Below, piece after piece: positions 17,465 through 50,565 of a DNA stretch of 64,000 nucleotides. The stretch's first letter is position 1. Every line of letters begins with the position of its first letter. The translations under genes were made by a program, and so were the position numbers. The stretch is from an uncultured Prevotellaceae bacterium (GTDB lineage Bacteria; Bacteroidota; Bacteroidia; Bacteroidales; Muribaculaceae). Location of the stretch: positions 1 through 64,000 of the forward strand of contig CAMVAP010000007.1 in the NCBI GenBank assembly GCA_947165485.1, written 5' to 3'. The notes under the pieces were generated by a model. That model was not told where the DNA came from and made no database searches. It saw only the letters and a list, made by a program, of their open reading frames with translations.

Positions 17465-18676
17465 ATGACTATGAGCAAGAAACTGCTTTTCAGACTGTTT
17501 GTCCTGCTGGCGGCAATGATGTGTGCCCTTGGCGCCAATGCTGCCGAAGCCTATGCCTGTGTCAGCTACGACACGTTGACGTTCTACTACGACGACCAGC
17601 GCAACAGCCACTCGACCGCGACCTTTGACGTGAATGCGGGAGACTATTTCCCCGGCTGGTTACAGATGGCCGGAGTTGTGAAATATGTGGTCTTTGACCC
17701 GTCGTTCGCTGTTGCCCGCCCAACGTCCACTCGCTTTTGGTTTGCTGGTATGGATCTTGAATCCATCACAGGCCTGAGTTACCTGAACACCAGCGAGGTC
17801 ATTAATATGGCTTATATGTTTAGTAGCTGTTTTAATTTGACGAGCCTTGACTTGAGCAGTTTCAACACGTCCAAGGTGACCAATATGGAAGGCATGTTCG
17901 ATAACTGCGCCAATTTGATAAATCTTGACTTGAGCAGCTTTAACACGTCCCAGGTGACCAATATGGAATACATGTTCCATGACTGCAGAGCATTGACGAG
18001 TCTTGACTTGAGCAGTTTCAACACGTCCCAGGTGACCAATATGGAATACATGTTCGCCGACTGCTATGTACTGACGAGTCTTGACTTGAGCAGTTTCAAC
18101 ACATCCCAGGTGACCAATATGAGATATATGTTCGATACCTGCTGGAAACTGGCGAGTGTTGATTTGAGCAGTTTCAACACGCCTCAGGTGACCAATATGG
18201 AAGGCATGTTCGCCGCCTGCTGGGCACTGGCGAGTCTTGACTTGAGCAGTTTCAACACGTCCCAGGTGACCAATATGGAAAGCATGTTCGAGGACTGCAC
18301 CAGCCTGCATACCGTCTGCGTGGGCAGTGGTTGGACCACGGCTTCAGTGATCTACTCAGATGCTATGTTCAAGCATTGTGCCAGCCTGGTCGGCGGCAAG
18401 GGTACAACTTATGATGCCAACCATGTGGATGATGAGTATGCCCACATCGACGGCGGCACGAGCAACCCGGGCTACTTCACCGATAAGAACGCTGTACTGC
18501 ATGGCGACGTGAATGGCGACCTTGAAGTGAGCGTCGCTGATGTGAATGCCGTCATCGACATCATCTTGGGCGGAAATGTTAGCACCCCTGCTGCCGACGT
18601 CAACGGTGATGGCGACATCAACATCGCCGACGTCAACGCCATCATCGATATTGTCTTGAACGGAACCCAGAATTAG
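17465..18676 (+). CDS. BspA-like (DUF285) leucine-rich-repeat surface protein with C-terminal dockerin-like repeats
   Basis: 26-aa repeats LDLSSFNTSQVTNMEYMFxDCxxLTS; C-terminal GDVNGDLEVSVADVNAVIDIIL...ADVNGDGDINIADVNAIIDIVLNG. Confidence 0.85.
   Translation: MTMSKKLLFRLFVLLAAMMCALGANAAEAYACVSYDTLTFYYDDQRNSHSTATFDVNAGDYFPGWLQMAGVVKYVVFDPSFAVARPTSTRFWFAGMDLESITGLSYLNTSEVINMAYMFSSCFNLTSLDLSSFNTSKVTNMEGMFDNCANLINLDLSSFNTSQVTNMEYMFHDCRALTSLDLSSFNTSQVTNMEYMFADCYVLTSLDLSSFNTSQVTNMRYMFDTCWKLASVDLSSFNTPQVTNMEGMFAACWALASLDLSSFNTSQVTNMESMFEDCTSLHTVCVGSGWTTASVIYSDAMFKHCASLVGGKGTTYDANHVDDEYAHIDGGTSNPGYFTDKNAVLHGDVNGDLEVSVADVNAVIDIILGGNVSTPAADVNGDGDINIADVNAIIDIVLNGTQN
17846..18313 (+). repeat. 78-bp tandem coding repeats (6 units)
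   Basis: The LDLSS codons start at 17846, 17924, 18002, 18080, 18158 and 18236, exactly 78 nt apart. Confidence 0.9.
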
Positions 18677-19128: not shown

Positions 19129-20782
19129 GATTATGAAACAACTATTCCGTTTTTCCATCCTGTTGCTGGCGCTCTTGATGCCCGCACTCGCCTACGCCCA
19201 CGACTTCGAGGTCGATGGTATCTATTACAACATCAACGGCAACGAGGCCGAAGTAACCCATGGGAAAGATATTTACAGTCGCTATCATGGCGCGGTGACT
19301 ATCCCAGCCAGCGTCACCTACAATGGAACCACCTACCCGGTAACTTCTATCGGCCAGCAGGCGTTCTTACGCTGTTCAAGGCTGACCAGTGTCGACATCC
19401 CCAACTCGGTTACTTCTATCGGCGCCTATGCGTTCATGGAGTGCACAGAACTGACCAGCATCGACATCCCCAACTCAGTAACTTCTATCGGTTACGAGGC
19501 GTTCATGAACTGCACTGGTCTGACCAGCATCGACATCCCCAACTCGGTAACGGCTATCAGTTCCTACGCGTTCTATAATACAGCATGGTACGATAACCAG
19601 CCTGACGGATTGGTCTATGCCGGCATGGTCGCTTATAAGTATAAAGGCACGATGTCAAGCGGAACGAATATAACTTTAAAAGAAGGAACATTAGGCATTG
19701 CTAGCTGCGCGTTCGAGGGCTGCGATGGACTGACTAGCATCGTCATTCCCAACTCGGTAACAGAGGTCGGTGTCTTGGCATTCATGGATTGCCCTGCGCT
19801 AACCAGCATCGTGGTAGAAAGTGGCAATCCAAGATATGATTCGCGCAACAACTGCAATGCAATTATAGAAACCGCCTCTAATATGCTAATTGCTGGCTGC
19901 AAAAACACGATGATCCCCAACTCGGTAACTGAGATCGGTTACGGGGCGTTCATGGACTGCACTGGTCTGACCAGCATCGTCATCCCCAACTCAATAACAA
20001 AGATAGGCGAGTTAGCGTTCCAGGGCTGCACTGGTCTGACCAGCGTTGACATCCCCAACTCGGTAACAGAAATCGTTTGCGATGCGTATGGCGACCCTGC
20101 GTTCCTTGGCTGCTGGGGTCTGACCAGCATCGTGGTAGAAAGTGGCAATCCAAGATATGATTCGCGCAACAACTGCAATGCAATTATTGAGAGTGCCTCT
20201 AATACGTTAATTGTTGGCTGCAAGAACACGACTATCCCCAACTCGGTAACTAAGATTGGTCCCTGTGCGTTCTTTGGCTGCGATGGTCTGACCAGCATCG
20301 ATATCCCCAACTCGATAACTTCTATCGGTGACAACGCGTTCCAGTACTGCGCTGGTCTGACCAGCATCGTCATTCCCAACTCGGTAACTGAGATCGGTGA
20401 CTGGGCGTTCGCTGACTGCACTGGGCTGACGGATGTGTATTGCTACATTGCTGACCTCTCGAGCGTATCGACAGGGAATAATCGATTCGAATTGGATAAT
20501 GGTGATTACTCTGGCCGTACGCTGCATGTGCTGAGGGGGACGGCTGATTCCTACCGTGGTAACAGGAACTGGTATCCGTATTTTGAGCGGATAGTGGAAG
20601 ATATATTCATGGGCGACGTGAATGGCGACCTTGAGGTTAACATTGCTGATGTGAATGCCGTCATCGACATCATCCTAAATGGTAGCGAGAATCCCAGCGG
20701 TGACGTGAACGGTGATAGCGAAATCAACATCGCCGACGTCAACGCCCTAATCGACATCATCCTGAACGCCCCAGGGAATTAG
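19127..20782 (+). CDS. LRR_5/BspA-type surface protein with C-terminal dockerin-like repeats
   Basis: Repeats SIDIPNSVTSIGxxAFxxCTGLT; C-terminal GDVNGDLEVNIADVNAVIDIILNG...GDVNGDSEINIADVNALIDIILN; signal peptide. Confidence 0.87.
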   Translation: MIMKQLFRFSILLLALLMPALAYAHDFEVDGIYYNINGNEAEVTHGKDIYSRYHGAVTIPASVTYNGTTYPVTSIGQQAFLRCSRLTSVDIPNSVTSIGAYAFMECTELTSIDIPNSVTSIGYEAFMNCTGLTSIDIPNSVTAISSYAFYNTAWYDNQPDGLVYAGMVAYKYKGTMSSGTNITLKEGTLGIASCAFEGCDGLTSIVIPNSVTEVGVLAFMDCPALTSIVVESGNPRYDSRNNCNAIIETASNMLIAGCKNTMIPNSVTEIGYGAFMDCTGLTSIVIPNSITKIGELAFQGCTGLTSVDIPNSVTEIVCDAYGDPAFLGCWGLTSIVVESGNPRYDSRNNCNAIIESASNTLIVGCKNTTIPNSVTKIGPCAFFGCDGLTSIDIPNSITSIGDNAFQYCAGLTSIVIPNSVTEIGDWAFADCTGLTDVYCYIADLSSVSTGNNRFELDNGDYSGRTLHVLRGTADSYRGNRNWYPYFERIVEDIFMGDVNGDLEVNIADVNAVIDIILNGSENPSGDVNGDSEINIADVNALIDIILNAPGN

Positions 20783-27048: not shown

Positions 27049-27164
27049 CTTGGTTATAGAATCAATATTAGATTATATTACTGTCCGGTAAAAAATCAAC
27101 AAGGTTGCATAAGCACTTCGGGATCAAAGCTGTTATGATGTTTTTGTTTGAAGGGGCTTGCTTT

Positions 27165-27475
27165 GTCAGGCGAGCAGGTCGAAGGCCTGCGCAAGGCCGA
27201 TGGCCTTGAATTGAGGCAACCCCAGGGCGCACTGGCCGAAGGTCAGTGAGGCCTGGGGAGAGACGCTCATGTCGATATGGGCCCTGAAGGGGGCCACTCA
27301 CTACGACAAGCGCACCATAGTCAAATTGCCTGATTCTGACGTTATTGGCCCTCTTCGAGGCCCGCTCCTATTATGGTCTGCTTTCCCTAGGCCACACTGA
27401 CCTTCGGCCAGTGCGCCCTAGGGTTAAGAATAGTCAAGGCCGCTGGCCTTGTGCAGGCCTTCAGCCTGCTAGACT
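27165..27475. repeat. Large imperfect palindrome of nested hairpins, copy A
   Basis: Arms GCAGGTCGAAGGCCTGCGCAAGGCCGATGGCCTTG...CCCCAGGGCGCACTGGCCGAAGGTCAGTGAGGCCTGGGG are mirrored in reverse complement at 27384-27470; related sequence at 50114-50399. Confidence 0.85.
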
Positions 27476-27498
27476 TTCCCCAGACACCAATGATTAAA

Positions 27499-28656
27499 TT
27501 ACTTTATTTTCTTGATGTCGTTGACAAAGAGGATTTTCTTTTCCTTGACCATTTGCTTGAAATCGTCGGCGGTGGCGATGCCAGGCGCTGCGCCAAAGTG
27601 CTCACGCTTGAAGTTGCGCCACGGCAGGAAATAGCAGGGATGGTGTTTTTCCATGATGGGCAGCAACACGCGGCTCCACCAGGTGGCATTGGGCGAATTC
27701 TTGTAGCCGCACTCGGTGAATGCCAGTAGCAGGCCATGTTCCCTAGCATAGGCATCCAGGAAGTCCATGTCGGCATTACATTGCTTGACAAAATCTTCTT
27801 CGGTGCCCCACTGATAGGCGTCAAGGCCTAACAAGTCAACACGCTCGTCACCAGGCCAGCGGTTATAGAATTCCTGCGGATTGACACCCAAGTTGGGCGA
27901 GCAACTCCACACGATGGACGCGGACAGGCTCTTGTTGATATAATCTTGAGTGAGGTTCCACAAGCGCAGGAAATCCTCGTCGCTGCAATTGCCCTTGCCC
28001 CACCAGAACCATCCGCCGTTGTACTCATGCCAGGGACGGAAGATCACAGGAACAGGCTTGCCGTCCTTGTCGGTGAGCGAGAGGATAAATGCCTCCACAC
28101 GCTGGAGCCACGTCATGAACTTGTTGTGGCCCTTGCCGCCGGGCAGAATCTCCTTTACTGTGCTCCGGGGATCGAGGACCAGACCGAGCTGACCGGTTTT
28201 CTCAAGATAAGGCTTTGCTGCCTCAAACGACTTGATGTCGCTCTCGATCCAAGCGGTGGTGCCCAACATGGGATTGCGCGGATGCCATGACAGCGTCACG
28301 ATACCGCCACGCTCATATTGCTTGATGATCTCTTCACGAATCCAGTTGAACGGTACCGAATCCAGGTTCTTGTCGTCGCCCATCTCGATGCCGCCCAAGT
28401 CAAAGCCCATCACGCCAGGGTAGTCGCCAACAAGGTCATAGGTGTCGGAACGGCCCTGTTCCCACTCCCACGTGATGCCATAGAATGGGTCGTCCTGATG
28501 GCCGTACATGATGCCGCGTTTTTGCAGCTTGGTGAGGCGCTCAATCAACTTTTGCGCCGGGGTTTTCTCAACTTTGGGTGCACGGGCTCCAGCCTGTGAT
28601 GCGCACAGGGCAAACAGCAGGGCGATGAGCAATAGTCTCGTTTTCATCATTTTCAT
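27499..28656 (-). CDS. GH26 beta-mannanase/mannobiohydrolase-like
   Basis: GIMYGHQDD, VIFRPWHEYNGGWFWWG, LLAFTECGY; signal peptide. Confidence 0.9.
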   Translation of the reverse strand: MKMMKTRLLLIALLFALCASQAGARAPKVEKTPAQKLIERLTKLQKRGIMYGHQDDPFYGITWEWEQGRSDTYDLVGDYPGVMGFDLGGIEMGDDKNLDSVPFNWIREEIIKQYERGGIVTLSWHPRNPMLGTTAWIESDIKSFEAAKPYLEKTGQLGLVLDPRSTVKEILPGGKGHNKFMTWLQRVEAFILSLTDKDGKPVPVIFRPWHEYNGGWFWWGKGNCSDEDFLRLWNLTQDYINKSLSASIVWSCSPNLGVNPQEFYNRWPGDERVDLLGLDAYQWGTEEDFVKQCNADMDFLDAYAREHGLLLAFTECGYKNSPNATWWSRVLLPIMEKHHPCYFLPWRNFKREHFGAAPGIATADDFKQMVKEKKILFVNDIKKIK

Positions 28657-50008: not shown

Positions 50009-50029
50009 TTATTTAAAACAAAGGAAACG

Positions 50030-50068
50030 AAAAAGGCTGAACCTCGGATGGCGGGATTCAGCCTTTTT
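50030..50068 (+). terminator. Rho-independent terminator after GH26 gene
   Basis: AAAAAGGCTGAA / TTCAGCCTTTTT perfect 12-bp stem. Confidence 0.85.
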
Positions 50069-50113
50069 CCCCTGTTTTCCGCATTGGGGCACGCCGTTGT
50101 GTTGCTCTAGAGA

Positions 50114-50399
50114 AGCAGGTCGAAGGCCTGCACAAGGCCAGCGGCCTTGACTTGAGGTAACACCACGGCGCGAGGGCTGTAGGTCCTCGTGGCGTGGTGG
50201 CTCGAATGCTACTCACGATGGGCCCTGAAGGGGGCCACTAACTGCGACATTTCCTAAGCCTGTGGTGTGTGGCCCTCTACGAGGCCCGTTCTCTCTAGCT
50301 TCCCTTTCCCCATGCCACACAGACCTATCGGCCTGTGCGCCATGGGGTTGCCATAATTCAAGGCCCACGGCCTTGTCAAGGTCTTTCGACCTTTTCTGC
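50114..50399. repeat. Nested-hairpin palindromic repeat, copy B
   Basis: Starts GCAGGTCGAAGGCCTGCACAAGGCCAGCGGCCTTGACTTGAGG as in copy A; shares GGGCCCTGAAGGGGGCCACT core. Confidence 0.85.
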
Positions 50400-50508
50400 C
50401 AGATAAAAACAGCACGGGACACGCCATTTTGCAAAATCCGATGCGCTAATTCCGTGAAGATCAGTCGCAATCTCTTATATCAAAATACTAGTGCGGAAAA
50501 CAGGAGCA

Positions 50509-50545
50509 GGGAGGATACCATCGGGCACCCTCCCTGTTTTTTTGT
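50509..50545. terminator. Terminator-like hairpin downstream of GH5 gene
   Basis: CAGGGAGG / CCTCCCTG followed by T7. Confidence 0.6.
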
Positions 50546-50565
50546 AACTGCTGTTAGGCAAGAGT

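Follow-up and report, generated by a model that had tools for sequence, protein, structure and literature searches.

Covarying hairpin arms shared by gene-free repeats and a Y1 transposase gene: probable non-autonomous mobile elements in a Bacteroidota genome

The window, i.e., the whole 64-kb stretch of DNA analysed here, contains two copies of one hairpin-arm family, designated A (27076-27492) and B (core 50114-50399). Each copy is composed of two inverted arms of about 125 nt, and each arm carries four hairpins in the order hp1, hp2, hp3 and hp4. The reading that we favour, with a probability of roughly 0.6, is that A and B are non-autonomous mobile elements whose hairpin core comes from a Y1 transposase unit similar to a REPtron or TIRtron, and that this core also rides in MITEs. 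Sequence comparison confirms the hairpins as real and conserved by paired mutations. The main surprise is the emergence of a candidate hairpin partner for transposases of TnpA subclass 1.2, together with the finding that a single hairpin core sits within three different kinds of transposon end.

Copy A is a whole element of 417 bp, bordered by target duplications ATTAGATTA on the left (27067-27075) and ATTAAATTA on the right (27493-27501), which agree in 8 of 9 bases. Its left arm (27174-27295, forward strand; matched by model R1) comprises hp1 at 27174-27190, hp2 at 27192-27208, hp3 at 27220-27258 and hp4 at 27279-27295, and its inverted right arm (27347-27469, reverse strand; model R1 match C7:27336-27471:-) comprises hp4' at 27347-27363, hp3' at 27385-27423, hp2' at 27435-27451 and hp1' at 27453-27469. 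The left arm of copy B (50115-50236, forward strand) is defined by pairing and covariation and by a model R1 match at C7:50113-50247, and includes hp1 (50115-50131), hp2 (50133-50149), hp3 (50161-50199) and hp4 (50220-50236). The inverted right arm (50271-50393, reverse strand; row L001:1690-1822:- of alignment A1, described below) includes hp4' (50271-50287), hp3' (50308-50347), hp2' (50359-50375) and hp1' (50378-50393). The whole of element B probably extends over 50071-50504, between 13-bp perfect inverted repeats CCTGTTTTCCGCA and TGCGGAAAACAGG; the ends of its B-type relatives show the same motif, with direct duplications outside. Both copies lack a tnpA gene, and both fold far more stably than dinucleotide shuffles (z of -10.1 for the copy B region and -15.7 for the copy A region). 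Elsewhere in the window, tandem arrays whose units are 78 bp and 69 bp long occupy positions 17760-18376 and 19332-20430, apparently inside coding sequence.

An earlier note on this DNA had compared four long hairpins, all of which we located (27220-27258, 27385-27423, 50161-50199 and 50308-50347). They are real, but all four represent hp3, only one of the four hairpins of each arm. The motif GGCNG(N)AGGTC, which the note had described as a conserved loop, is mostly stem (GGCC/GGTC or GGCC/GGCC). The "loop" GGCCGAAGGTC consists mostly of stem, and the actual loops are 3-4 nt in length (GAA, GTA, GATA and so on).

The family is widespread within the genus. A BLAST search with copy B produced 90 matches in its own draft genome; among 25 genomes of the genus, 15 had matches, and the 16 genomes taken from other families of the order had none. 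A covariance model detected arms in 83 of the 101 congeneric genomes scanned, the copy counts being lower bounds with 33 candidates scored per genome. The close relatives are MAGs labelled rumen Muribaculaceae, "Prevotellaceae" or Bacteroidales. A search of the open-licence literature on Bacteroidetes yielded no description of such a hairpin-arm family.

The proposal of a nonautonomous REP-like element, put forward in the earlier note with the advice to look for a transposase beside full-length copies, gained support: homologues of the repeat carry a Y1 transposase gene flanked by these arms. In its own genome, an ORF for a 148-aa HUH/Y1 transposase lies between the arms at C16 and C3, and a third such ORF, having lost its extreme 5' end, at C81, giving three tnpA copies of this type. 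At C21, C38 and C40 only parts of the tnpA region are left, as in partly deleted intermediates. The protein contains the Pfam Y1_Tnp domain and scores 58.3 bits against NCBIfam NF033573 (IS200/IS605 TnpA; cut-off 55), versus 30.2 bits against the RAYT model NF047646, far under its cut-off of 80. A TnpA profile matched the ISDra2 and IS608 TnpA structures in the PDB, entries 2fyx and 2xm3 being those of ISDra2 TnpA; a phmmer search of the PDB with the single TnpA sequence gave no match. The motif YIKNQRMHH corresponds to the Y---Q--HH signature with HUH, and the HIH, Y114, Q118, H121 and H122 residues are invariant across 16 TnpA sequences. Judged by motif, length and host phylum rather than by a tree, the protein fits subclass 1.2, on the IS200 side of the family. 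The gene appears to be maintained: dN/dS is about 0.05 (56 unsaturated pairs), indicating strong purifying selection, and 16 of 17 tnpA genes carry a TAnnTTTG box, the Bacteroidetes -7 consensus, within 60 nt upstream (0.6 expected). Members of TnpA-Y1 subclass 1.2 are described as generally without terminal secondary structure and of low copy number (PMC6006769). Two further Y1 transposase genes of the same genome (L031 on C32, L035 on C5) are flanked by other hairpin arrays, that on C32 (CCCCTGCCTATGACCTGGTCG) resembling a second family of repeats.

Homologous arms flank tnpA in the own genome and in 15 close relatives. Among 14 orthologues at 82-93% identity, the order hp1-hp4, tnpA, hp4'-hp1' is kept, one of them (L115) having most of its downstream arm missing. 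An orthologue at 70% identity retains the same order in largely different sequence, and those at 54% and 44% show a version of the arm order recognisable by eye. Further afield, the flanks of 34 tnpA loci at ≤72% identity, scored by span-limited folding with shuffles, gave a mean z of -2.82 versus -0.55 for nearby controls (Wilcoxon p 7e-7), and those of eight cyanobacterial loci -2.74 versus -0.89, the controls being unmatched for intergenic position or terminators, both of which may contribute to the difference. By predicted folding, the distant tnpA flanks are structured, a result that says nothing on the homology of the hairpins. TnpA and arm distances were not significantly correlated in a Mantel test (r 0.24, p 0.14, n 10).

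Hairpin copies occur in three end types, A, T and B. Copy A is one of six copies in its genome of exactly 417 bp with A ends and 9-bp target duplications, four of which are perfect. T ends are accompanied by 8-bp duplications, by eye perfect at C3, C16 and L120 and matching in 7 of 8 bases at C38; at C21 none was found by eye. Duplications border three B-type relatives: exact ones of 12 and 21 bp, and one of about 73 bp that contains a few differences and an exact stretch of 28 bp, compared with shuffled maxima of 10-11. For copy B in the window, no target duplication of its own was found, its longest flanking repeat being 7 bp, within chance. Very short T-type elements, consisting only of TIR-hp1-hp2-hp1'-TIR, were also observed (L065 on C2, L067 on C12).

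IS200/IS605 elements make no larger target duplications (PMC2817692). Because such duplications are not known from Y1 enzymes, the sequence pattern suggests that the copies were probably moved by other transposases, presumably DDE enzymes acting in trans. The A ends (CA......T with a 9-bp duplication) agree with IS4Sa, and the B ends (C.....YT with long variable duplications) with IS1634/IS1549, each a fit of about three letters; variable duplications of 8-514 bp have been reported for the IS1634 family (PMC2266710). The searches made turned up no DDE gene bounded by A, B or T ends. A search with PF01609 (DDE_Tnp_1) in the own draft, which is 92% complete, recovered a single gene, rejected as a partner on account of its different ends. 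The A-end pattern in 101 congeners led to other hairpin-containing elements, and inspection by eye recognised no transposase among their longest ORFs. In L097, L099 and L108, from other species, A-end-like sequences (TGTCCGGTAAA) border other hairpin elements of about 325-545 bp. The hairpins themselves may also attract insertions: one IS-like end, TGAACTGCGCCCCAAAAGTTGGAC, adjoins an hp3 stem (CCACGCCACACGAG) at an identical position in two different copies, L012 (C54 end) and L010 (C72 end; see also L202 and L203), as if an IS targeted this hairpin. IS elements that target REPs are known (PMC1525189).

Short, gene-free, with inverted ends, a target duplication and several copies, copy A has the attributes of a MITE. 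It could be argued that the copies are plain MITEs moved by DDE enzymes alone, the core serving as passive filler or as a transcription shield and TnpA residing in one such element without any role in the spread. Such an account would explain the 8- and 9-bp duplications and inverted terminal sequences, neither of them a known product of Y1 enzymes, and also the arms of genomes in which no TnpA match reached 1e-10 (e.g., G002, G052 and G104). It does not, however, predict that every close tnpA orthologue examined would have the same flanking hairpin order, that the flanks of distant orthologues would be structured too, or that tnpA would be under such strong purifying selection, and filler has no need of covarying local stems. 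We regard it as the most serious rival, albeit an unlikely one.

Copy B is located between two convergent genes and also between two terminator-like hairpins. It is absent from the orthologous gap in the 16 congeners in which both neighbours were found; in G019 it is present in the same gap, among other inserted repeats, and in G021 the gap holds an arm fragment. The gap orthologous to window positions 50009-50565, between two glycosidase-like genes, contains different repeats in nearly every species (L204-L225), much as expected of a place where insertions are tolerated. Where both neighbours of an A or B copy were called, they are convergent in the majority of cases. This placement and the stable folds might indicate a function selected in the host, whereby the arms serve as bidirectional terminators, mRNA 3' stabilisers or nucleoid-protein sites, and covary for that reason. 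Such a role is improbable. Copy B is missing from the orthologous gap of the 16 congeners noted above, and that gap already has terminators; the arms are without a T run, and those around tnpA covary equally. Tolerance of insertions also predicts convergent-gene placement.

For the analysis of covariation, arms were gathered by a sequence profile without structure, complementary outer hp3 stems being required in the seed set alone, and near-duplicates above about 96.5% identity were removed, leaving 67 distinct arms (alignment A1). Under the four-hairpin structure, 96.2% of the pair cells are paired, even though the alignment is off by one column wherever the hp1 loop has 4 nt, an error that works against the structure. 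Changes on both sides of the stem occur in 26 of 37 pairs, versus 11.9±1.5 in shuffles (0/500), and two-sided cells number 236 versus 70. When partners were slid, pairing fell to 27-51%, a control that matters because shuffles leave relatedness in place. As a single example, the G019 copy in the same gap has an hp3 inner stem of CAAG/CTTG compared with CGAG/CTCG in the window, a compensatory pair. The two-sided stem changes reported in the earlier note are far beyond chance, and the covariation is present in the wider collection of arms, where its absence had been named as the contrary outcome.

In 20 arm pairs (19 true single elements, the one labelled L003 combining the L003 left arm with the L103 right arm), local pairing reaches 96.9%, compared with 79.9% for arm-arm complementarity, which argues for selection on local hairpins rather than on one giant cruciform. 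Together with the covariation, this supports the selection on folding that the note had proposed and disfavours its cruciform by left-right arm pairing: single-strand folding predicts long-range pairing of the arms, yet evolution keeps the local stems better. On the inward strand, G.T cells exceed A.C cells (173 versus 22), which suggests that the strand read inwards in each arm is the folding one.

A trans-acting structured ncRNA transcribed from the element would likewise have stable folds and covariation, but we consider it very improbable: no Rfam family matched (three sub-threshold matches all fell outside the arms), the folded strand is not the same in both arms, and the inverted symmetry, the target duplications and the transposase gene between the arms of homologues fit a mobile element. 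That the pairs reflect chance or gene conversion is scarcely credible, for although many copies in the genome are near-identical and rows non-independent, near-duplicates were removed, two-sided changes far exceed those of both controls, and the arms of one element differ while each keeps its own pairs.

The favoured derivation from a Y1 unit can be formulated as follows. The core would be an inverted pair of arms, each with four local DNA hairpins, homologous to the arms that flank the 148-aa tnpA. TnpA would recognise these arms as single-stranded hairpins on the inward strand, by analogy with the recognition of REPs by TnpA-REP, and such recognition would account for the covariation of the stems. 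Many of the present copies would owe their spread to DDE transposases supplied in trans and acting on core-containing ends, type A with 9-bp, type T with 8-bp and type B with long variable duplications, and the elements would survive where insertions are tolerated, in gaps that often separate convergent genes. More tentatively, TnpA of subclass 1.2 may, throughout Bacteroidota and Cyanobacteria, have recognition arms of its own composed of multiple hairpins, the core having been captured repeatedly in this genus by unrelated DDE-type ends to form composite elements movable by two chemistries. Candidate DNA partners would be supplied in this manner for a HUH transposase class described as having none, and the many genomic copies and their covariation point to the exact hairpins. 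The apparent combination of a single-strand transposase unit with double-strand (DDE) ends bears on the origin and spread of REP-like repeats.

Among known systems, TnpA-Y1 subclass 1.2 shares the Y---Q--HH motif, the short protein and the occurrence in Bacteroidota and Cyanobacteria (PMC6006769), whereas here multi-hairpin arms are found on both flanks, with many gene-free copies. The resemblance to IS200/IS605 elements (IS608, ISDra2) lies in the TnpA family and fold, by sequence profile, and in hairpins near the gene. Those elements, however, are without terminal inverted repeats or target duplications (PMC2817692), while the present arms are mutually inverted, with four hairpins each, and the ends are inverted with 8-bp and 9-bp duplications. 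MITEs of IS4Sa-like and IS1634-like IS elements are similar in end consensus and duplication pattern (PMC2266710), but here the interior is a common hairpin core and a matching transposase was not found.

Like the REP/BIME/REPIN repeats with their RAYT REPtrons, the family includes a Y1 transposase gene with inverted palindromic repeats on either side, with gene-free copies scattered intergenically and palindromes kept by complementary mutations (PMC2817692, PMC3116915). Unlike RAYTs, with their Y---NP motif, the TnpA is on the IS200 side with Y---Q (PMC6006769); the arms are four-hairpin structures of about 125 nt with transposon-like ends and target duplications, and in the consensus of the 67 arms no GT[AG]G head occurs 5' of hp1, hp2 or hp3. 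In TIRtrons, similarly, the tyrosine transposase (TIRYT) gene lies between long inverted repeats, some of them partly self-complementary and members of repeat families (PMC3733652). TIRYTs belong mostly to subclass 2.1 (PMC6006769), in contrast to the subclass 1.2 Y motif observed here, and target duplications, present here, are not known to form part of the TIRtron description (PMC3733652). The element is neither IS200/IS605 proper nor, judging from its head motif and class of transposase, a REP; in anatomy, its sequence organisation works as that of a REPtron or TIRtron.
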